Source: a virus. Taken from it: a stretch of 21,873 nt of DNA. Within the stretch, counting starts at the first letter, position 1. The number at the start of each line of letters is the position of its first letter. The notes beneath the pieces were generated by a model. It worked only from the letters and a program-made list of their open reading frames with translations, was not told the DNA's origin and did no database searches. The translations under genes were made by a program, and so were the position numbers. The DNA lies in IMG/VR virus record IMGVR_UViG_3300021600_000032, positions 1 to 21,873 of that record. One strand, given 5' to 3'. Below, piece after piece: positions 1 to 21,739 of this stretch.

Positions 1-2724
1 GTATATGTTAACAGTTTTATCTTGTGAAATCCTGTAATTTCTATCTTCAGCCTGTTGATGGTTTGATGGGACAAAATCTATATCGTGGAATATTGTTGTA
101 TCTGAGGCTGTTAATGTTATAGCAGAACCCGCTGAAATAATATTACCAATAAAAACTCTTTTGTTTGGGTTGGTTTGAAATTCATCTATGGATTTTTGTT
201 TTTCTTTTTCATTCATTTCACCGTTATGACAAACAGCAATATCACCCAACTCACCTTTTAATTTTTTTAGTGACTCAGTAAATACGGTAAAAATAATAAT
301 CTTTCTATCTTCAGATTGTTCTAAAAAGTTATTAACCATATCTAACGTTAAAGGTACTTTTTGTTCTGAAATAAATTTACGTAAAATTACCATCTCAGTC
401 ATTTGTCTAGCTGGACCTAATTTTCTACCCTCAAGTTTTAACCATTCAACATATTCATTAAATGCGTTATCATAACCCTTTCTATCATCTAATTCTAAAT
501 AAAATGGTGAGATAATTTTTGGCGGTAAATCTAAATGGTCTTCTTTTTTTCTACGTAGGATATAATTCTTAGTTTTAATATGTAATTCTTCTAAATTTGA
601 TGCCCCATCAGTTAACCAAATTCTTTTAACCTTTCCTGACGCTAATTTCTTATTAAACGATTTAGCCGCACAATATCTATAAGCGAAGTGTTGAAAGTTA
701 TCTGTTACAGGAACTCTACAAACCTTAAGTAGGTTATAGTAGTCCATTGGTCTATTAGATATAGGTGTACCAGTTAACAACCAAATACTTTTAACATTTT
801 CAGAAATCTGAGGTACAATCTTACCCCTGATTGAAGATTTATTCTTAATCATATGGGCCTCATCTACAATTATTAAATCAAACCCTTCTTCATTTATAAA
901 ACTTTTAGCTTCTTCTTTTTTTCTCTTATCTTCTATCTCATGAAATCTATTTAAAATATCATAATTAATAATAGTAAAAAATTTAGGTTGCCAAAATCCT
1001 GACTTAACTATTGTTACATATTCTTCATCAATATATTCGGTTATTTCTCGGAACCAATTAATTTTAGCATTTGCTGGGCAAATAACCAATATTTTTTCCG
1101 CTCCTGACAATAAAGCTGCAGCTATTGCTGACTTTGTATTATGTGTAACTACATATTCATCCATAACATATAAGTGATCTTCAGCGTCTACTGATATACA
1201 TTGGGCTTCAAAACTTCTTGAAAATTCTATATTTTTTATACCCCTAGAAGGGTTGTATTTTTTAGATTTTGTCATGTTTTTTATTTTACGTGATAATCTA
1301 AAAGGTATTATGTTTTCAGGTAAGTTTATTGTTAAAATATGTGATTTTTTACACTCAATAAAAACACCATTTTTTTTATAACCGCCATTTTTAATTCTCT
1401 CTCTTGTCACACCCCCTAATGATTGGACTAGTTGTTTAACGTCTTTAGATAATTGTTCAGATGTTGTGTAATATTGTATTGTGCCTTTTTTTGAACAATA
1501 CCCATCAGTATCTAATAAACCTTGTAAAACAGATAACCTAACCTCTTTAGAGTTATATATATAATCTTTAGGTATGAATTTAGTATCTGACTTAGTGTTC
1601 ATTAACTCATAATGTCTTAACCATTTAGTTATTTCATTATCATGACCCTTCTGTTTATCTGGTATTTCACAAGTAATTAAATAATCACAATTAATTATAT
1701 GTTTTAAAAAATGATTTTTAGGTAGATCATCAGTCAACTCTTTTATTAATTCATCATCTACAGTTGAAAACCTAATAGATGTTTTTGATAACCCCCCATC
1801 ACCTAGTAATAAACCTAAAATATAAGGGTTAATACCGACAAATTTAGTGTCAAACTCCACTGGTTTAACTATAGGTATATACCATTTTAAATTACCCTTA
1901 GTACCGTAAGTTAAATCACCAATTAAATCTTTCAATTGTTTAACAACATAACCACCACTTCTTTTTTTATGGTTAGTGGTTTGCACCGCCCATAAATGTT
2001 CATCACAAGTCTCAACCACCGTACCATCAGTAAATGTCACCTTATATAAATCCTTTTTACCCTGTGGAAATACACCATTAACTTTTGTGGGTTTTCCGTT
2101 AGAACCTATTACATAATCACCTATTTTTATTTCACCCATTTTAATCCAACCATTAGGTGTTAATAAATTACTATCTATAGCAGCTGCTTTTCCCAATCCC
2201 ATATCGTCAGATAGGATAGACCTGTTTTTCTTTAGTAAGAATTTAACGGCAGTTTCTTGGTGTGGGAATAAACTACGTCCTTTTTTATTTATTTTATTAA
2301 CGGAATCAAAATTAACTTCCAAATCTTCGAAAGGTTCGTAAAACATATCTGTTAATATTTGTGTTTTAGGTATGTGAAATAAAACAGATTGTTTTTGATT
2401 TTTATAAAGTTTACCTTTTACATGGTAAGATTTATCACCGTCGGCTAATAATAATTCAACAAAAACACGTTCTGGGTTGTTTTTCAAACCGTAGTTTTCT
2501 TTTAATTGTTCCCCTAAATAAGGTGTAATATCCACAACCTTATTTATTTCCATAGGTTCTCTTTCAAAATTTTCTTCGATATAAGATATTTGACTAGTGG
2601 TGAGCACAAAAAAACCTTCATTATCTAACTTTTTTTTCATTTTTAGAATATGATCGTTTGTTCCCGTATAATTACGTATTTTTTCTAAAGTAGTTTTGTT
2701 CTTTAATTTAGTTAAATCTACCAT
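1..2724 (-). CDS. SNF2-family DNA helicase/translocase with intein, 3' end outside window
   Basis: Reading down from the ATG at 2724 gives 908 codons with no stop before the window edge, so the C-terminus is missing. The N-terminal part (residues 1-179) ends in a helicase Q-like segment (LFPHQETAVKFLL) and Walker A (DDMGLGK). The motif is interrupted after its Lys and resumes with Thr at residue 530. Motif II is DEAH (621-624), motif III is LLTGTPIS, and motif VI is QAEDRNYRISQ (891-901), close to the QAxDRxxRIGQ of SNF2 proteins such as SMARCAL1. The family comprises ATP-dependent duplex translocases or annealing helicases acting at forks and in repair. In this phage it probably serves replication or recombination, the role UvsW plays in T4. 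The gene is divergent from the homing endonuclease at 2813 and has two tandem ATATTTAT promoter-like copies upstream. Family call is firm; exact role is inferred. Confidence 0.93.
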   Translation of the reverse strand, partial: MVDLTKLKNKTTLEKIRNYTGTNDHILKMKKKLDNEGFFVLTTSQISYIEENFEREPMEINKVVDITPYLGEQLKENYGLKNNPERVFVELLLADGDKSYHVKGKLYKNQKQSVLFHIPKTQILTDMFYEPFEDLEVNFDSVNKINKKGRSLFPHQETAVKFLLKKNRSILSDDMGLGKAAAIDSNLLTPNGWIKMGEIKIGDYVIGSNGKPTKVNGVFPQGKKDLYKVTFTDGTVVETCDEHLWAVQTTNHKKRSGGYVVKQLKDLIGDLTYGTKGNLKWYIPIVKPVEFDTKFVGINPYILGLLLGDGGLSKTSIRFSTVDDELIKELTDDLPKNHFLKHIINCDYLITCEIPDKQKGHDNEITKWLRHYELMNTKSDTKFIPKDYIYNSKEVRLSVLQGLLDTDGYCSKKGTIQYYTTSEQLSKDVKQLVQSLGGVTRERIKNGGYKKNGVFIECKKSHILTINLPENIIPFRLSRKIKNMTKSKKYNPSRGIKNIEFSRSFEAQCISVDAEDHLYVMDEYVVTHNTKSAIAAALLSGAEKILVICPANAKINWFREITEYIDEEYVTIVKSGFWQPKFFTIINYDILNRFHEIEDKRKKEEAKSFINEEGFDLIIVDEAHMIKNKSSIRGKIVPQISENVKSIWLLTGTPISNRPMDYYNLLKVCRVPVTDNFQHFAYRYCAAKSFNKKLASGKVKRIWLTDGASNLEELHIKTKNYILRRKKEDHLDLPPKIISPFYLELDDRKGYDNAFNEYVEWLKLEGRKLGPARQMTEMVILRKFISEQKVPLTLDMVNNFLEQSEDRKIIIFTVFTESLKKLKGELGDIAVCHNGEMNEKEKQKSIDEFQTNPNKRVFIGNIISAGSAITLTASDTTIFHDIDFVPSNHQQAEDRNYRISQDKTVNIY
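1138..2187 (-). mobile_element. Intein with LAGLIDADG endonuclease, inserted in the helicase Walker A motif
   Basis: A 350-residue in-frame insertion splits the P-loop between GK and T. It starts AAAIDSNLLTPNGW and ends VVTHN, followed by the extein Thr. Its first residue is Ala, not Cys or Ser. Intein residue 66 is Trp in block B (DEHLW), residue 330 is Cys in block F (AQCISVD) and residue 348 is Thr in block G (VTHN). These match the W-C-T signature of class 3 inteins, of which the mycobacterial DnaB intein is the example I recall. Two LAGLIDADG-type motifs, YILGLLLGDG (122-131) and LQGLLDTDG (221-229), mark a homing endonuclease domain with both acidic residues kept. Splicing should restore MGLGKT. 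The reading frame, the terminal His-Asn and the endonuclease motifs are intact, so it is probably active. Confidence 0.92.
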
Positions 2725-2790: not shown

Positions 2791-2812
2791 TAAAATAAAA
2801 GTGTATATATTA

Positions 2813-3502
2813 ATGAAAAGCGGGATTTATAAAATAAGAAATATTATTAACGATAAAGTTTATATTGGTTCAGCTTTTAATATCAAACAAAGGTGGAATA
2901 GACACTTAAATGAGTTAAAACAAAATAAACACCATTCACCTAAACTACAGAGATCTTTTAACAAATACGGATTTGATAATTTTATATTTGAAATTATTGA
3001 GTTATGTGAAAAAGAATTGTTAATTGAAAGGGAACAGTATTGGGTAGATTTTCTATCCTCATATAATAATGGGTATAATTCAACACCAAACGTTATAAAA
3101 CCTATGTTAGGTAGAAAACATACTGAAATCACTAAAAAATTAATGAGTGAAAAGCATTTAGGTAAAAAAGTTTCTAGTAAAACAAAGGAAAAACTTAGCC
3201 TTATTAATAAAGGTAAAAAATATGATATCTACACTAAAGAAAGAAATCTTAAAATTAGTAATGCCTTAAAAGGTGAAAAAAACTATATGTTTGGAAAACA
3301 TATGTCTGAGGGTGTAAAGAAAAAACTTATAGAAAAAAATAATAAAAAAATAAGACAGTTTACTAAAGACGGTATATTCATAAGAAAATGGGATAGTATT
3401 TCAGAATGTGCTAAATATTTGGGTGTAGATAATAGTAGTATTACTAAAGTCTGTAAGGGTAAGTTAATAACAACTAAAAACTTTAAATTTTCATATGAGT
3501 AA
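2813..3502 (+). CDS. GIY-YIG homing endonuclease with NUMOD-type DNA-binding repeats
   Basis: Residues 1-90 form a GIY-YIG nuclease domain: SGIYKIRN, then DKVYIGSA, an Arg in QRWNRH, and a later catalytic-type Glu in EREQYW. The middle part carries repeated LGRKHTEITKKLMSEKHLGKKVS-like units that resemble NUMOD3. The end (RKWDSISECAKYLGVDNSSI) is a helix-turn-helix of the NUMOD1/IENR1 type. The architecture matches free-standing Seg-like endonucleases that spread into phage genomes. Start: an in-frame GTG lies at 2801, but the ATG at 2813 gives the usual MKSGIYKI opening and is preferred. The last 8 nt overlap the next gene's start. It sits between helicase and structural genes rather than inside an intron. 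Confidence 0.9.
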   Translation: MKSGIYKIRNIINDKVYIGSAFNIKQRWNRHLNELKQNKHHSPKLQRSFNKYGFDNFIFEIIELCEKELLIEREQYWVDFLSSYNNGYNSTPNVIKPMLGRKHTEITKKLMSEKHLGKKVSSKTKEKLSLINKGKKYDIYTKERNLKISNALKGEKNYMFGKHMSEGVKKKLIEKNNKKIRQFTKDGIFIRKWDSISECAKYLGVDNSSITKVCKGKLITTKNFKFSYE

Positions 3503-4016
3503 TAATAAAAAAAGGCCAATAAATAGAATGGGGCGTTTCTATGACGAGATTGATTTTAGTCTTGAAAATGAAATGGCTCGTGAACACCTAGAGGGCGATT
3601 TAAATTTTGTGGTGGTGTTATTCCAAGTTGATAGGAAAGAAACTGCTGTTGATGACGTATACGGTGAGGCAAAATCTAACGAAATTAGATTTAAGGCACC
3701 TAAAGAATTACGCGTTAAATTGGCTTTAGAGGCTGCAGAAAATAAATCTTATTCTGGTGGTATGAATAGAATATTAGAATATGGTAATCTTACTTTCCAT
3801 GTTTTCCAAGAACAACTGAATGAATTAGGATGTGATATATCTTACGGTGATTATATCGGTTATGCCGATAGAGAAGATAATATAGTTTATTTCACTGTTA
3901 GTAATGACGGTAAAATATATTCTGAAAATTCGCATACAAGATTAGGTTATAAAGCTTATTACAGAACAATAACATGTGTGAAAGCAGACCAAAACGAGTT
4001 TAACCCAAATTACTAA
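3495..4016 (+). CDS. Probable virion structural protein (neck/connector region)
   Basis: This 173-aa soluble protein overlaps the endonuclease stop by 8 nt and is followed 3 nt later by the next structural gene, so the two are co-transcribed. It has no signal peptide or membrane segment. The C-terminal half is beta-rich and aromatic (DISYGDYIGYADRED, then YKAYYRTITC). I do not recognise a family with certainty. Its place just before a probable tail-completion protein and the fibre and sheath genes suggests a neck or head-completion protein, the position occupied by gp13/gp14 in T4. That assignment rests on context only. Confidence 0.6.
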   Translation: MSNNKKRPINRMGRFYDEIDFSLENEMAREHLEGDLNFVVVLFQVDRKETAVDDVYGEAKSNEIRFKAPKELRVKLALEAAENKSYSGGMNRILEYGNLTFHVFQEQLNELGCDISYGDYIGYADREDNIVYFTVSNDGKIYSENSHTRLGYKAYYRTITCVKADQNEFNPNY

Positions 4017-4019
4017 AAA

Positions 4020-5060
4020 ATGGCTCTACCTAAAAAATTAAAAAAACAATTAGACTTACCAATGGTTGACCCACAAGGTGGACCTAAACAATATATTGCC
4101 AATTATTTAAAAGATAATAAGAATAATCTACCAAGAGGTATAGACCACGCTGATTTAGATAATGGTTTTGTTGAATGGGTTAATAAAGATTTGGGTGTTG
4201 TTGTTGACGGTGAAAAAATACCTGTTTCGTTTTTGACCGCACAAAGATGGACAGAATTTACAAGAAATTGGCAAAATTCTGATAAATATAAAAACATCAA
4301 AATACCTTTTATTTCTGTGGTTAGAAATCCTGATGCACAACCTGGTACTAACCCAGCTGATTTTAAAATACCTGTTAGAAAAGATTTTCCTTATATGACA
4401 ATACAAACATGGGATGGTAATAAAAAGGGGGCAAATGTTTATACAATGCCACAACCTGTTGGTATTGATTTGACTTATAATGTCAGGTTTTTTACTTACA
4501 GAATGAATGAATTGAATGTTCTAAATCAAAAAGTTTTAACAACTTTTGCTTCAGCTCAAGCTTATGTTAACATAAAAGGCCATTATTTTCCTATAATGTT
4601 GGAAACAATAGGCGATGAATCAACTATTGATGATATTGATGGTAAGAGATATTATGTTCAAACATATGAGTTAAGAATGATGGCTTATTTGTTGAATGAA
4701 GAGGAGTTTAAAATTAAACCAGCTTTAGAAAGGGCAATAATGTCCTACGAAGTTCAAGATAAAGCACCTAAGGTTGTAACCAAAATTATTAAAGACCAAA
4801 GTCAAAATGACAAAACAATAAATTTGGTTATTCAGTTTTTACCTGGATCACCAACAACCGTGACTTTTCAGGCGGATACACTTGCTAACTTTACGTCAAT
4901 CCAAACTTCTAATGTTTCTGATGTAACAATTTATGTTAACGGTATTGCAGTTACTTTACCATTTTATCTTATGATAAACGATGTTATAGGCATATCTATT
5001 GTTAGAACAGATGCAACAAAATTATCTGAAATAATACTAAGAGGAACAATACCACTATGA
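4020..5060 (+). CDS. Probable neck/tail-completion structural protein
   Basis: This is a 346-aa protein. The central segment (about 145-235) is the most family-like: it runs from DLTYNVRFFTYRMNELN through a QAYVNIKGHYFP stretch to RRYYVQTYEL-like text (here KRYYVQTYELRMMAYLL) and an acidic EEEFK. I associate this pattern with neck or tail-terminator proteins of large T4-like phages, the gp15 role of capping the tail tube and sheath, but I cannot verify homology. The last 95 residues (about 250-346) look like a separate beta-domain. The gene starts 3 nt after its upstream partner's stop, and its own stop overlaps the next ATG by 4 nt (ATGA), indicating translational coupling. Confidence 0.6.
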   Translation: MALPKKLKKQLDLPMVDPQGGPKQYIANYLKDNKNNLPRGIDHADLDNGFVEWVNKDLGVVVDGEKIPVSFLTAQRWTEFTRNWQNSDKYKNIKIPFISVVRNPDAQPGTNPADFKIPVRKDFPYMTIQTWDGNKKGANVYTMPQPVGIDLTYNVRFFTYRMNELNVLNQKVLTTFASAQAYVNIKGHYFPIMLETIGDESTIDDIDGKRYYVQTYELRMMAYLLNEEEFKIKPALERAIMSYEVQDKAPKVVTKIIKDQSQNDKTINLVIQFLPGSPTTVTFQADTLANFTSIQTSNVSDVTIYVNGIAVTLPFYLMINDVIGISIVRTDATKLSEIILRGTIPL

Positions 5061-13923: not shown

Positions 13924-14574
13924 ATGCAATCATTGAATGAAGAAATTGTAAGAATTAAAAAGTTGATGAATATCAATGAAGATTATAAAAAATCTTTGAT
14001 ATCAGCAGCTATGGTTTGTTCACTTATAGGCGGTGTTGTTTCATGTAAAGGTAAAGACACAAAAACTGAATATGCTGTAAACGGTATTGATTTAGGTAAG
14101 AGTGTTCAAAAATTATCTGATAACGGTATACAAAAAGATACAGTTTTAACTGATATATTGGCAGAAATTAAAGCAAACCTTACAAGTAATAACCCATCAA
14201 AATTAATTAGTTTAAATAATAAACTAATGTCTTATGTACAATCAAAAGGTGTTAAAATAGAAAATAAAGAAGTAAACTTAGACGAGTCTGGTATTAAAGG
14301 TATGGGAATTACCGAGATATTTGGTTGGTTAGGTTCTTTATTATTAGCATTGTGTGGGGTACCACAGGCAATACAATCATATAAGGATAAACATTCAGAT
14401 GGTATTTCTTGGGGGTTCTTATTGTTGTGGGCATTTGGTGAATTATTTGCTATGGTATATGTTGGTGAAAAAGTTGACTTACCATTATTATTAAATTACG
14501 CAACTAATATTTTAATTGTTGGTGTGATGTTATACTACAAAGTTTATCCTAAAAGAGAAATCGATAAAATTTAA
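13924..14574 (+). CDS. PQ-loop (SemiSWEET-like) membrane protein with lipoprotein-like N-terminus
   Basis: This 216-aa protein has four parts. Residues 1-20 (SLNEEIVRIKKLMNINED) form a helical tag also found at the end of the 781-aa protein. Residues 21-41 look like a lipoprotein signal peptide: two Lys, a hydrophobic stretch and VVSC, with Cys41. Residues 42-125 are a polar linker. Residues 130-207 hold three hydrophobic helices with GVPQAIQSYKDKHSDGISWG after the first, the PQ-loop signature of the SWEET/SemiSWEET and PQ-loop transporter superfamily. SemiSWEETs are single three-helix units that dimerise to move sugars. No transport activity can be claimed here. Lying between sheath and tube genes, it may be a virion or host-membrane protein. 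The combination is unusual. Confidence 0.8.
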   Translation: MQSLNEEIVRIKKLMNINEDYKKSLISAAMVCSLIGGVVSCKGKDTKTEYAVNGIDLGKSVQKLSDNGIQKDTVLTDILAEIKANLTSNNPSKLISLNNKLMSYVQSKGVKIENKEVNLDESGIKGMGITEIFGWLGSLLLALCGVPQAIQSYKDKHSDGISWGFLLLWAFGELFAMVYVGEKVDLPLLLNYATNILIVGVMLYYKVYPKREIDKI

Positions 14575-17209: not shown

Positions 17210-19555
17210 ATGATGTCAAGAGAAAACCTTATAAACAACACTGTAGAAAAAGATATTGAATTAACTATAAACTATTTAATAGAACACTCTAATTCTATAT
17301 TAAAAAACAATAAATTATTGTTTGAAAATAAAATAGATAAGGTTGAATTTGATAAAATAAACGAAGGATTATGGGAAAAAATCAAATATGGTCTTTCCAA
17401 ATTAGGTCGTTACAAGGCTGGTGGTAAAATTTTAGGAAAAAATAAAATAGACCAAGAAACTGCTGATAAGATACAAACTATTTTAGATAAAAAAGGTAAT
17501 GAGGTTATTAAAAATTTACACTCTAATATACAACAATCTAATCCAGAATTTCCAAACAATGAAAAAGGTGAACAATTCTTAAAAACTGTTTTAGAAATCG
17601 CCACTGTTTATGATTCCATTGTTGAAGCAACCAAAAAAGACCCTAAAGAAGAAGGTTATTTACCTATAGATGCCGCAAATACGGTTATAGAAGATTTAGC
17701 TTCATATGCTAAAAAATATCTTGATGTTGATTTAACCGCAGCCTATTCTGTTATGGATTCCGAAGAAGAGAAAGTAGATACAGATGATGAGGAAGGTGAT
17801 GATACTGAAAAAGGGGAAGAAGAACTTTTAACCGATGATGTTAAAGATATTAATGAAGATGAGGCATCAGATGTTAGAAAAAAGTTACAATCTAAAAAAG
17901 GTGAGGACGGTGTTAATAGGGACAGTGAAAGGATGAAGACCTTAAAATCTAATAAACTTCCTCTTATGTTGGTTGGTGTTGGAGCATCGATGGGTGCTTT
18001 TTCTTGGTTAGCCAATACAGAATGGTTTAAACATTTATTTGAATCCACTTACCATTATACAGATACGGAAAAAATAAAAAGTGTCATCCAAGTAAAAACA
18101 CAAGTTCTTAATGATATCAAACCTGGTGAGGGTGTTTATAAATTATTGGGTAGGGTTACAGAACATCCTTTGGATAGTAACTCATCACCTGAAGAATTTA
18201 TGAACGCATTAAAACAAATAGGTGGTGGGGATGCAAATAAAGGTGTTGATTTATTATGTCAAAAAGGTGGTGTAATGATGAAACCTGAATTTGCGGCAAA
18301 AGGTCTTCACGATTTTGTAAATAACCCAGATAAGTTTAAAAATATGGGTGAACTATTTAAAGGAACCGCTTCAGGTACTGGTAAATTAGTTGAGCCAGGT
18401 ACAGGTCTAAATACAACATCTTACGGTACAATAGCTGGTAAAAGTTTAACTTCTATTTTGGTTAAAAATTTACCTACAATAATTACTAAGGTTGTTATTA
18501 AAACTGGGGTTAAAGTTGGTAGTGGTTATGCTGTAGCTAAAGGATTTGGAGCTGTCTTAGGTCCAATAGGTGTTGCAGTAGTTTCCGCAGGTTTATTAGT
18601 TAAAGCTATGAGAATTAAGGGTCAAAAACAATCAAGAGCTAAAACTTTAAACGATTTATATCAATCTATACAACCAATTAAAGGGGATAAACAAAACATG
18701 TCAGTTTTACCATCACGTGAGGAAGACAAAGATGCTAAACCTACATCAACACCACAAGATGAAGTAACACCTACATCAACACCAGCGCCAAAAGACTTTC
18801 TTAAAGGTAATAGAAATATGCAATTAGCTTACTTAGCAGAATTGTTTTTACCTCAAGGTAGTGGTTTGTGGGATAGGTTAGGGATTAAAAAAGGTACCGT
18901 AATACCTAGTAATTTCTTAGATGCGGCATTAGGACAAGGTAAAGTTGATTCTGAAAAATATTTAAAAGCTTATTATAACCATTTAAAGAAAGAAAATTCT
19001 TTTACAAAAGATCCAGGTAACTCTGGTGCTTGGATTGCTAAAATTAGAAGTAATCAGACATTAGATTTGGTTAAATGGATAAGAAACACAAGAAAAAATA
19101 TAGGAGCTTTCTTAAAGGCATTAAATAAAGAATTCCCTGACATGGAGATAGGTCAAAGAGCAAAGGCAACAACAGTAAAACCAGGTAAAAGGGGTGAATC
19201 AATGGGTACGTCTGGCATACAAGATTCCATACAAAGAATAAATAATATTTTATCGGAATCCATTAATTTAGGTAATACAGCTTTAAAAGCTGGTTTTGAC
19301 AGTAATCTGTTTATGAAAAATTTACCACAGTTTATGGAGATGATAAGTTCTATGTATTACAGTATTAAAGGTGATAAGTTACCATATAATAAAGATGGTG
19401 TATTAAATATTTGTAAAAAATATGGTTGTAAATATGGTAAATCATCTGGTTATCAAAAAACAAAATCAGCTGATTATAAGTTACAAAGTGAAGCTAAAAC
19501 TTTAAATAAAAATTTAAATGAAGAAATAATTAGAATAAAAAATTTGATGAAATAA
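17210..19555 (+). CDS. Large virion-associated protein with hydrophobic segments, unknown family
   Basis: This 781-aa protein has a Lys/Glu-rich helical N-terminus (NEGLWEKIKYGLSKLGRYKA at about 52-71), then a very acidic linker (about 184-220: EEEKVDTDDEEGDD and similar). A hydrophobic segment follows (about 250-268, LPLMLVGVGASMGAFSWLA), then a Gly/Ala-rich hydrophobic region (about 425-470, containing KGFGAVLGPIGVAVVSAGLL). There is a Thr/Pro linker (PTSTPQDEVTPTSTPAP) and a C-terminal helical domain ending LNEEIIRIKNLMK. That ending matches the N-terminal tag of the PQ-loop protein. It is not a tape measure by position or composition. A head-internal protein ejected with DNA, or a membrane-active protein, fits the hydrophobic segments; this is inference. 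The start could also be the second ATG at 17213. Confidence 0.65.
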   Translation: MMSRENLINNTVEKDIELTINYLIEHSNSILKNNKLLFENKIDKVEFDKINEGLWEKIKYGLSKLGRYKAGGKILGKNKIDQETADKIQTILDKKGNEVIKNLHSNIQQSNPEFPNNEKGEQFLKTVLEIATVYDSIVEATKKDPKEEGYLPIDAANTVIEDLASYAKKYLDVDLTAAYSVMDSEEEKVDTDDEEGDDTEKGEEELLTDDVKDINEDEASDVRKKLQSKKGEDGVNRDSERMKTLKSNKLPLMLVGVGASMGAFSWLANTEWFKHLFESTYHYTDTEKIKSVIQVKTQVLNDIKPGEGVYKLLGRVTEHPLDSNSSPEEFMNALKQIGGGDANKGVDLLCQKGGVMMKPEFAAKGLHDFVNNPDKFKNMGELFKGTASGTGKLVEPGTGLNTTSYGTIAGKSLTSILVKNLPTIITKVVIKTGVKVGSGYAVAKGFGAVLGPIGVAVVSAGLLVKAMRIKGQKQSRAKTLNDLYQSIQPIKGDKQNMSVLPSREEDKDAKPTSTPQDEVTPTSTPAPKDFLKGNRNMQLAYLAELFLPQGSGLWDRLGIKKGTVIPSNFLDAALGQGKVDSEKYLKAYYNHLKKENSFTKDPGNSGAWIAKIRSNQTLDLVKWIRNTRKNIGAFLKALNKEFPDMEIGQRAKATTVKPGKRGESMGTSGIQDSIQRINNILSESINLGNTALKAGFDSNLFMKNLPQFMEMISSMYYSIKGDKLPYNKDGVLNICKKYGCKYGKSSGYQKTKSADYKLQSEAKTLNKNLNEEIIRIKNLMK

Positions 19556-19617: not shown

Positions 19618-20106
19618 ATGGCAGATTTATTAATGAGGATGCCCGTTCCTTATGAACCAAAAAAACAGAATAGATTTATTCTTAGATTTCCATCACCTTT
19701 AGGCATACAGGAATGGTTTGTAAAATCATCATCAAGACCTAAAATAACTCAGGAGGAAGTCGAAATTCAATTTCTTAACACATCTACATGGGTTATTGGT
19801 CGTTTTACTTGGGATAGTATTGATGTAACATTCCGTGATCCTATTGGCCCTTCTGCAGCACAAGCTTTAATGGAGTGGGTTCGTTTACATTCGGAATCAG
19901 TAACAGGCCGTCAAGGTTACGCCGCTGGATATAAGAAAGATATTGAACTTGAACTTCTTGATCCAACAGGTGTGGTTATTGAAAAATGGATACTTCAAGG
20001 TACTATGTTGACAAATGTTGACTTTGGTAGTTTAGATTACTCATCTTCAGATATTGCTGAGATTACTGGTACTTTACGCTTCGATAGAGCAATTCACGTA
20101 TTCTAA
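19618..20106 (+). CDS. Tail tube protein (gp19-like)
   Basis: This 162-aa protein is almost the length of T4 gp19 (163 aa as I recall). Typical features are an N-terminal FILRFPSPLGIQEWFVKSSS segment, then TWDSIDVTFRDPIG, ALMEWVRLHSE, IELELLDPTGVVIEKW and a closing FGSLDYSSSDIAEI stretch before TLRFDRA. This beta-barrel fold forms stacked hexameric rings that make the inner tail tube. In T4 gene 19 directly follows the sheath gene; here about 5.8 kb of other genes intervene. No terminator is visible after it. The next gene has its own promoter-like octamer. Confidence 0.93.
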   Translation: MADLLMRMPVPYEPKKQNRFILRFPSPLGIQEWFVKSSSRPKITQEEVEIQFLNTSTWVIGRFTWDSIDVTFRDPIGPSAAQALMEWVRLHSESVTGRQGYAAGYKKDIELELLDPTGVVIEKWILQGTMLTNVDFGSLDYSSSDIAEITGTLRFDRAIHVF

Positions 20107-20146: not shown

Positions 20147-20154
20147 ATATTTAT
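20147..20154 (+). promoter_or_regulatory. ATATTTAT promoter-like element for the second endonuclease
   Basis: The octamer ends 4 nt before the ATG at 20159. This position supports that start rather than an upstream in-frame ATG inside the tube gene. Confidence 0.5.
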
Positions 20155-20158
20155 TTAT

Positions 20159-21739
20159 ATGGAACTTTCTTTTTTTACAACAAATAATAAATCTGGTTAT
20201 AAAACCAAAGAACGGTGGTTCTTCAAAAACTATCCCGAAGAATATCGGACAATATTAACATATTGTTATAATAAAATCCCTTCATCATCTTTCAAAGAAA
20301 AAATATGGTTCTATTTTAATAATCTAACACAAAAACCAAAATGTGAGTCTTGTGGTGGTGAAATAACATTTTCAGAACGATTTGACCGTGGGTATAACTC
20401 TTTCTGTTCACTGAAATGTGCTAATGATAGTGGGTTGTTATTAAAAAAATCTAAAGAATCTATGTTGAAAAAGCATGGTGTAGAATTTTACCCTCAACAC
20501 TCTAGCTTTGTTAAAAAACAAAAAGACACCAAGAAAAATAAATATGGTGATGAAAATTACAACAATAACAAGAAATCTAAAAACACAAAGATGGAACGTT
20601 ATGGTGATGAGAATTATGTTAATGTTGAAAAGGCTAAGGAAACCTCATTACTAAAATATGGTACAAATAATTATTCTAAATCAAATTCTTTTAAATTACA
20701 AATAGAAAATAACTATAGAAACTTATATAAAGAATTAGATATAATTAATGTAGGTAAAAATATTATTAAAATAAAATGTAATGGGTGTAACTGTGAGTAT
20801 GATATAAACAAACAATTACTATATGAAAGGAAGAAACATAAATATGTTTTATGTACTGAATGTAATCCTATAGGGTTTTCTTCCATTAGTCAATACGAAC
20901 AACAGATATCTGATTTTATAACATCATTAGGTATAGATAACACACAATCAAATAGAGTTCTATTAAATAATAAAGAAATTGATATACTAGTACCTAAACA
21001 TAATTTAGGTATTGAATTTGATGGGTTATATTGGCATTCAGAACACTTTATGGATAGTGACTACCATTTAAATAAAACAAAAGAATGTGAGAAATTAGGT
21101 ATTAATTTAATACACATATTTGAGGATGAGTGGTTATATAATAGACCGATTGTGGAATCTATTATAAAAAATAAATTGAACTTGATTTCCAATAAGGTTT
21201 ACGCAAGAAGATGTGAATTAAAAGAGGTTAACGATTCTGTTTCAAAAAAGTTTTTAAATGAAAACCATATTCAAGGTGGTGAATGTAAAAACTCTGTTAG
21301 ATTAGGTTTATATTATGAAGAAGTGTTGGTTTCATTAATGACATTCTCAAGGGGAAGAATATCACTTGGTGGTAGTGTTGATGAATGGGAATTGGTTAGG
21401 TTCTGTAATAAAATAAACTATAATGTTGTTGGTGGGGCCTCAAAATTGTTTAGTTATTTTTTAAAAACACAAAAACCTAATAAAATTATTTCATATTCTG
21501 ATATAAGAATTTTTGACGGTAAACTATATAACACATTAGGTTTTAATAAAATCCATGAATCAAAACCTAATTATTGGTACGTTTTGGAAAATAAGAGGTA
21601 TCATAGATTTGCTTATAGAAAAAACGTTTTGGTTAAACAGGGTTTTGATAAAGATAAGACTGAAAAACAAATCATGTTTGATCGTGGGTATTATCGTATA
21701 TATGACTGTGGCCATATAAGATGGGAGTATAATAATTAA
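20159..21739 (+). CDS. Free-standing homing endonuclease, Vsr-like core with Mom/GNAT-like C-terminus
   Basis: This is a 526-aa protein from the ATG at 20159; the frame extends upstream into the tube gene, but that start is unlikely. In order: a Cys4 zinc motif (C62, C65, C83, C87); four repeats of the type KxYGxENY (about 104-173), common in phage endonucleases; a zinc ribbon (C207, C210, C232, C235); a nuclease core with EIDILVPK (273-280), IEFDGLYWHSE (285-295) and FEDEW (321-325), resembling the Vsr-like PD-(D/E)xK or EDxHD fold; and a C-terminal domain (about 348-490) with SLMTFSRGR, WELVRFCN and YNTLGFNKIHESKPNYWYV, which recalls Mom/GNAT-fold proteins. Probably a selfish homing enzyme beside the conserved tube gene; its target was not determined. 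Confidence 0.82.
   Translation: MELSFFTTNNKSGYKTKERWFFKNYPEEYRTILTYCYNKIPSSSFKEKIWFYFNNLTQKPKCESCGGEITFSERFDRGYNSFCSLKCANDSGLLLKKSKESMLKKHGVEFYPQHSSFVKKQKDTKKNKYGDENYNNNKKSKNTKMERYGDENYVNVEKAKETSLLKYGTNNYSKSNSFKLQIENNYRNLYKELDIINVGKNIIKIKCNGCNCEYDINKQLLYERKKHKYVLCTECNPIGFSSISQYEQQISDFITSLGIDNTQSNRVLLNNKEIDILVPKHNLGIEFDGLYWHSEHFMDSDYHLNKTKECEKLGINLIHIFEDEWLYNRPIVESIIKNKLNLISNKVYARRCELKEVNDSVSKKFLNENHIQGGECKNSVRLGLYYEEVLVSLMTFSRGRISLGGSVDEWELVRFCNKINYNVVGGASKLFSYFLKTQKPNKIISYSDIRIFDGKLYNTLGFNKIHESKPNYWYVLENKRYHRFAYRKNVLVKQGFDKDKTEKQIMFDRGYYRIYDCGHIRWEYNN

Follow-up and report, generated by a model that had tools for sequence, protein, structure and literature searches.

A predicted class 3 intein with a LAGLIDADG endonuclease splits the Walker A motif of a phage SNF2-family helicase

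The Snf2 intein of Deinococcus radiodurans was among the first inteins proven to belong to class 3 (Brace et al. 2010, as related in PMC3196547 and PMC4031507), and these accounts describe biochemical proof that it uses its block F Cys. A survey published in 2020 counted 1701 class 3 inteins, 82.5% of which have LAGLIDADG motifs (PMC7891396). The junction between the GK and T residues of the P-loop (GK/T) is a classic insertion point, and class 3 inteins are present in mycobacteriophages (PMC5050341). Mycobacterial class 3 DnaB inteins with solved structures (e.g., 6bs8 and 6rix) carry the triplet of Trp, Cys and Thr (WCT), a THN end and a Walker A insertion, as does the intein described here, but they are mini-inteins without an endonuclease, are hosted by DnaB, and have Ser at the +1 position. 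The nearest class 1 relative in the PDB is the phage intein gp41-1 (6qaz), which shares the THN end but belongs to class 1 because it has Cys1 and an Asp at position F:4. Class 3 inteins are frequent among phages. In the phage collection, 777 records contain a relative of the present intein, and SNF2 helicases with WCT inteins at GK/T were found in Pseudomonas phage PhiPA3 (gp233, L009), Brevundimonas phage Papperlapapp (L010) and an uncultured phage (LR756508, L008). The inteins of these three phages are about 345 aa long with LAGLIDADG motifs, are 37-44% identical to the one reported here, and are not called inteins in their annotation. An earlier note on this DNA had proposed that a phage SNF2 host would widen the list of class 3 inteins; since the D. 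radiodurans Snf2 intein, PhiPA3 gp233 and others were already known, this claim to novelty was dismissed after a literature and database search. Like the intein reported here, the D. radiodurans element is a class 3 intein in an Snf2 helicase, but its host is bacterial, and the two are likened by the published description rather than by sequence or site. Hence, the intein type, the insertion site and the kind of host protein are all already known, and the locus adds a cleanly preserved example.

The window, meaning the whole stretch of DNA analysed, comprises 21,873 nt (positions 1 to 21,873 of IMG/VR virus record IMGVR_UViG_3300021600_000032). A single ORF on the minus strand (1..2724) encodes an SNF2-family helicase and is truncated at its 3' end at window position 1, shortly past motif VI. 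Pfam places SNF2-rel_dom (3e-26) on either side of an insert, Helicase_C (1.2e-10) downstream of it and LAGLIDADG_3 within it, and the product contains the helicase motifs GLGK/T, VDEAH, TGTP and QAEDRNYRIS, identifying the host as an SNF2 helicase. The insert (1138..2187, minus strand) spans 350 aa, Ala1 to Asn350, corresponds to residues 180-529 of the ORF product, and splits Walker A between the Lys of GK and the Thr. The N-extein (179 aa; 2188..2724, minus strand) ends in the Walker A residues ...DDMGLGK, and the C-extein (1..1137, minus strand) opens with TKSAIAAALLSG right after Asn350, so that its first residue is the Walker A Thr. Across the two junctions the minus-strand translation reads ...SILSDDMGLGK/AAAIDSNLLTPNGW...ETCDEHLW...QCISVDAEDHLYVMDEYVVTHN/TKSAIAAALLSG, and the frame is unbroken through the entire intein and helicase, from 2724 to the window edge. 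The general intein models TIGR01445 and TIGR01443 gave no match in the window and so say nothing about the class.

Based on its residues, Pfam matches, alignment, phylogeny and structure model, we consider it about 95% probable that the insert is an intein of class 3 that includes a LAGLIDADG homing endonuclease and separates Lys from Thr within Walker A of a phage SNF2 helicase. The first residue, Ala1 (2185..2187; all features of the intein are on the minus strand), is not a nucleophile, and the Cys or Ser that would otherwise initiate splicing from this position is lacking. The WCT triplet consists of Trp66 at B:12 (1990..1992), Cys330 at F:4 (1198..1200), the predicted initiating nucleophile, and Thr348 at G:5 (1144..1146). 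These are accompanied by His64 at B:10 (1996..1998), the C-terminal cyclisation residues His349-Asn350 (1138..1143), and Thr+1 (1135..1137), the putative C-extein nucleophile. Both LAGLIDADG motifs are intact with their catalytic acidic residues, motif 1 being ILGLLLGDG within YILGLLLGDGG (1795..1821; D130) and motif 2 being LQGLLDTDG (1501..1527; D228; LAGLIDADG_3 at 2.7e-13). The earlier note had placed an intein at 1138-2187 in the P-loop of an SNF2 helicase, between the GK and T of Walker A, and had pointed to its Ala first residue, its Trp/Cys/Thr signature and its two intact LAGLIDADG motifs. The translation bears out each of these points, and the placement is further supported by Pfam, by alignment and by alleles that lack the insert.

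Following the splicing steps described for class 3 inteins (PMC4031507, PMC7664689, PMC5222942), Cys330 would be activated together with His64 and Thr348, with Trp66 packing against it, and would attack the Lys-Ala1 peptide bond, giving a thioester branch at block F. Transfer of the N-extein to Thr+1 would follow, cyclisation of Asn350, aided by His349, would release the intein, and an acyl shift would link GLGK to T and restore the P-loop. Both splicing and this order of steps are presumed by analogy with the class. It is reasonable to suppose that the helicase would be inactive until splicing, because the intein splits its P-loop. At the DNA level, the endonuclease, whose activity is predicted from its sequence, would cut intein-free alleles and thereby allow the element to spread.

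A search for intein-free alleles, which had been proposed earlier, was performed on viral contigs with the joined (intein-removed) host protein, and it recovered 29 such helicases (L097-L124 and L126) that align without gaps at 79-84% identity over 557-558 residues. In DNA these alleles are continuous where the window reads GGAAAA-intein-ACA (nine inspected), which is an exact empty site with the junction precisely between the AAA and ACA codons. The divergent neighbouring genes at 3495-4016 and 4020-5060 are kept beside the helicase in most of the intein-free relatives, which are therefore true orthologues. One of these relatives (L121) belongs to a contig of 318 kb, suggesting that the window represents part of the genome of a very large tailed phage; the window's genes for sheath, tube and head protease are consistent with a tailed phage.

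The distribution of the intein is patchy, with helicases as much as 84% identical to that of the window lacking it, while the nearest inteins (52-61% identical) are in helicases only about 47-58% identical. These nearest inteins, from IMG/VR (L002, L018, L019 and L020), share both the helicase gene and the insertion site with the window intein, and three of them (L002, L019 and L020) have neighbouring genes as in the window. Unlike the window intein, those of L018-L020 begin with Val, and in the nearest relative (L002:3001-4191) LAGLIDADG motif 2 reads LLDTNG, the catalytic Asp having been lost. The L002 helicase frame is also disrupted soon after its intein. The patchy pattern suggests homing of the intein, with its loss in many lineages as the alternative. 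A different possibility is that the class 3 intein splices conditionally and controls the phage helicase like a switch, in which case it would be more than a purely selfish insert. Its location in the ATP-binding loop would suit such a role, and mycobacterial DnaB inteins are sensitive to oxidants and to zinc (PMC6195587, PMC7360933). We nevertheless regard regulated splicing as unlikely, given that the sequence allows no condition to be inferred, that 29 close relatives manage without the intein, and that the patchy distribution matches selfish homing.

To place the intein in a class, a panel of 113 sequences was assembled from the window intein and relatives picked by similarity to it; a search of genome contigs with a closer alignment gave three loci only. 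His64, Cys330 and Thr348 are present in all 113 members, and the Cys and Thr tallies are unbiased by the collection scan, whose peptide patterns contained HLW of block B and nothing from blocks F or G. Trp66 is found in 112 of the 113, a tally partly biased by the HLW pattern, and His349 and Asn350 are found in every member, counts that are partly fixed by construction as intein ends were placed at a HN pair. The +1 residue is Thr in 102 members, Ser in nine and Cys in two, whereas position 1 varies freely among eleven residue types (Ala in 76/113). The 22 class 1 controls, taken from Actinomycetota genomes with the family model TIGR01445, all have Cys at position 1 and Asp at F:4, with F, L or I at B:12 and V, S, N or A at G:5. 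The WCT residues are thus found in 112-113 of 113 family members versus 0/22 controls. Given the gap-free intein-free orthologues and the conservation of W, C and T relative to the controls, the insert and its signature are far beyond chance.

The same division is recovered by phylogeny. An IQ-TREE tree of 99 rows (77 family members and the 22 class 1 inteins; 125 columns after removal of the catalytic motif columns) separates all family rows from all class 1 rows with branch support of 100/99. The family side includes L233, which matches the class 3 structure 6rix at 1.1e-46, so that a near relative of a solved class 3 intein falls inside the clade, although the class 3 DnaB structures entered the tree via such close relatives rather than as rows themselves. 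The window intein forms a clade with L002, L018 and L020 (100/98), and each of these inteins is hosted by the same SNF2 gene. Likewise, in a sequence search of solved structures the nearest matches are the class 3 DnaB inteins 6bs8 and 6rix (2.8e-11 to 1.2e-10) and 6riy from Mycobacterium, with class 1 gp41-1 (6qaz) ranking behind them at 1.9e-8. A profile of 73 relatives scores an engineered gp41-1 bearing the WCT residues (C1A, F65W, D107C; 6riz) 12 bits over the wild type (6qaz). The AlphaFold2 model of the intein has a mean pLDDT of 95.2, and its top Foldseek matches are PI-SceI and other VMA inteins of class 1, which lead overall because they are solved inteins carrying an endonuclease domain; among inteins without this domain, the class 3 DnaB structures 6riy and 6bs8 come first. 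The modelled insert is a complete intein, made up of HINT and LAGLIDADG parts.

These data also bear on two other readings of the missing first nucleophile. Ala1 would abolish splicing in a class 1 intein, and a class 3-like pseudogene intein that is inactive has been described (Arsp-FB24 Arth_1007; PMC3196547), so that the element could be conceived of as a class 1 intein that can no longer splice for want of its first nucleophile and sits in the helicase as a dead, blocking insert. We consider this very improbable, as Cys occupies F:4 where class 1 has Asp, the Trp and Thr of the triplet are there, the reading frame stays open across intein and helicase, all catalytic residues are retained together with both LAGLIDADG aspartates, and WCT is kept in relatives having ten other first residues. 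A class 2 intein, in which the +1 residue attacks the N-terminal bond directly, would share the absence of a first-residue nucleophile, but class 2 is known only from KlbA genes and without the WCT triplet (PMC3196547), whereas here the host is an SNF2 helicase and F:4 is Cys, making this reading exceedingly improbable.

Several members of the panel depart from the usual pattern. Three WCT inteins in SNF2 hosts (L048, L057 and L072) start with Cys and so have class 1 and class 3 nucleophiles together, and eight further members start with Ser. In related inteins at L094:2812-5298 and G003:C247:19032-20076, the endonuclease part contains an in-frame stop or is frameshifted, reflecting either decay or sequencing error.

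Clustering of the exteins of the 113 panel members gave 39 SNF2-type, 28 DnaB-like, 14 PhoH and many other hosts; these counts, and those of host changes, are rough, as panel members were selected for their resemblance to the window intein and the tree has 125 columns. Pfam assigns the extein representatives to SNF2, DnaB_C, PhoH, AAA_5, AAA_24, UvrD, DEAD/Helicase_C helicase and Terminase_6N, and 96 of the 113 inteins are inserted at GK/T or GK/S. We give roughly even odds to a scenario in which a single phage-centred class 3 lineage, specialised in the Walker A coding site, has moved repeatedly among unrelated phage ATPases (SNF2, DnaB, PhoH, UvrD-like, AAA, terminase and others), its endonucleases recognising conserved P-loop DNA and not one gene. 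A single origin of the SNF2-hosted inteins was rejected (AU test, p about 1e-4), and the tree implies 13 switches to or from an SNF2 host. Some intein-bearing proteins of the phage collection (H13/H14, H25 and H36) are the same or similar, yet their annotations differ, reading terminase, DarB-like antirestriction protein or helicase. The intein sequence appears to mislead automatic annotation, because hits to PHROG families of terminase and primase fall on the intein itself.

Other genes in the window also merit description. A GIY-YIG homing endonuclease gene with NUMOD motifs (2801-3502, plus strand) is divergent from the helicase start. In close relatives (e.g., L097, L106 and L119) the two genes that flank it are present with no such gene between them; the window therefore has two distinct endonuclease insertions in a span of about 2 kb. 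A second free-standing homing endonuclease-like gene (20153-21736, plus strand; PHROG 3339, 3.5e-122) lies immediately after the tail tube gene, and its ORF start at 20054, which overlaps the tube gene, is probably too early. The product of 13924-14574 (plus strand) matches a PHROG of unknown function weakly (8.7e-4), and by eye its C-terminal half resembles a SemiSWEET/PQ-loop sugar transporter, which is unusual in a phage. Its N-terminus shares the motif LNEEI[IV]RIK[KN]LM with the C-terminus of the 17210-19555 (plus strand) product. This motif is possibly a targeting tag, and it was not found in the other fetched loci.

The window intein leaves the understanding of intein mechanism unchanged. 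The combination of an intact intein with ready intein-free alleles of the same gene is useful for tests of homing and of class 3 splicing outside DnaB, and the panel shows class 3 inteins to be widely placed in phage P-loop ATPases.
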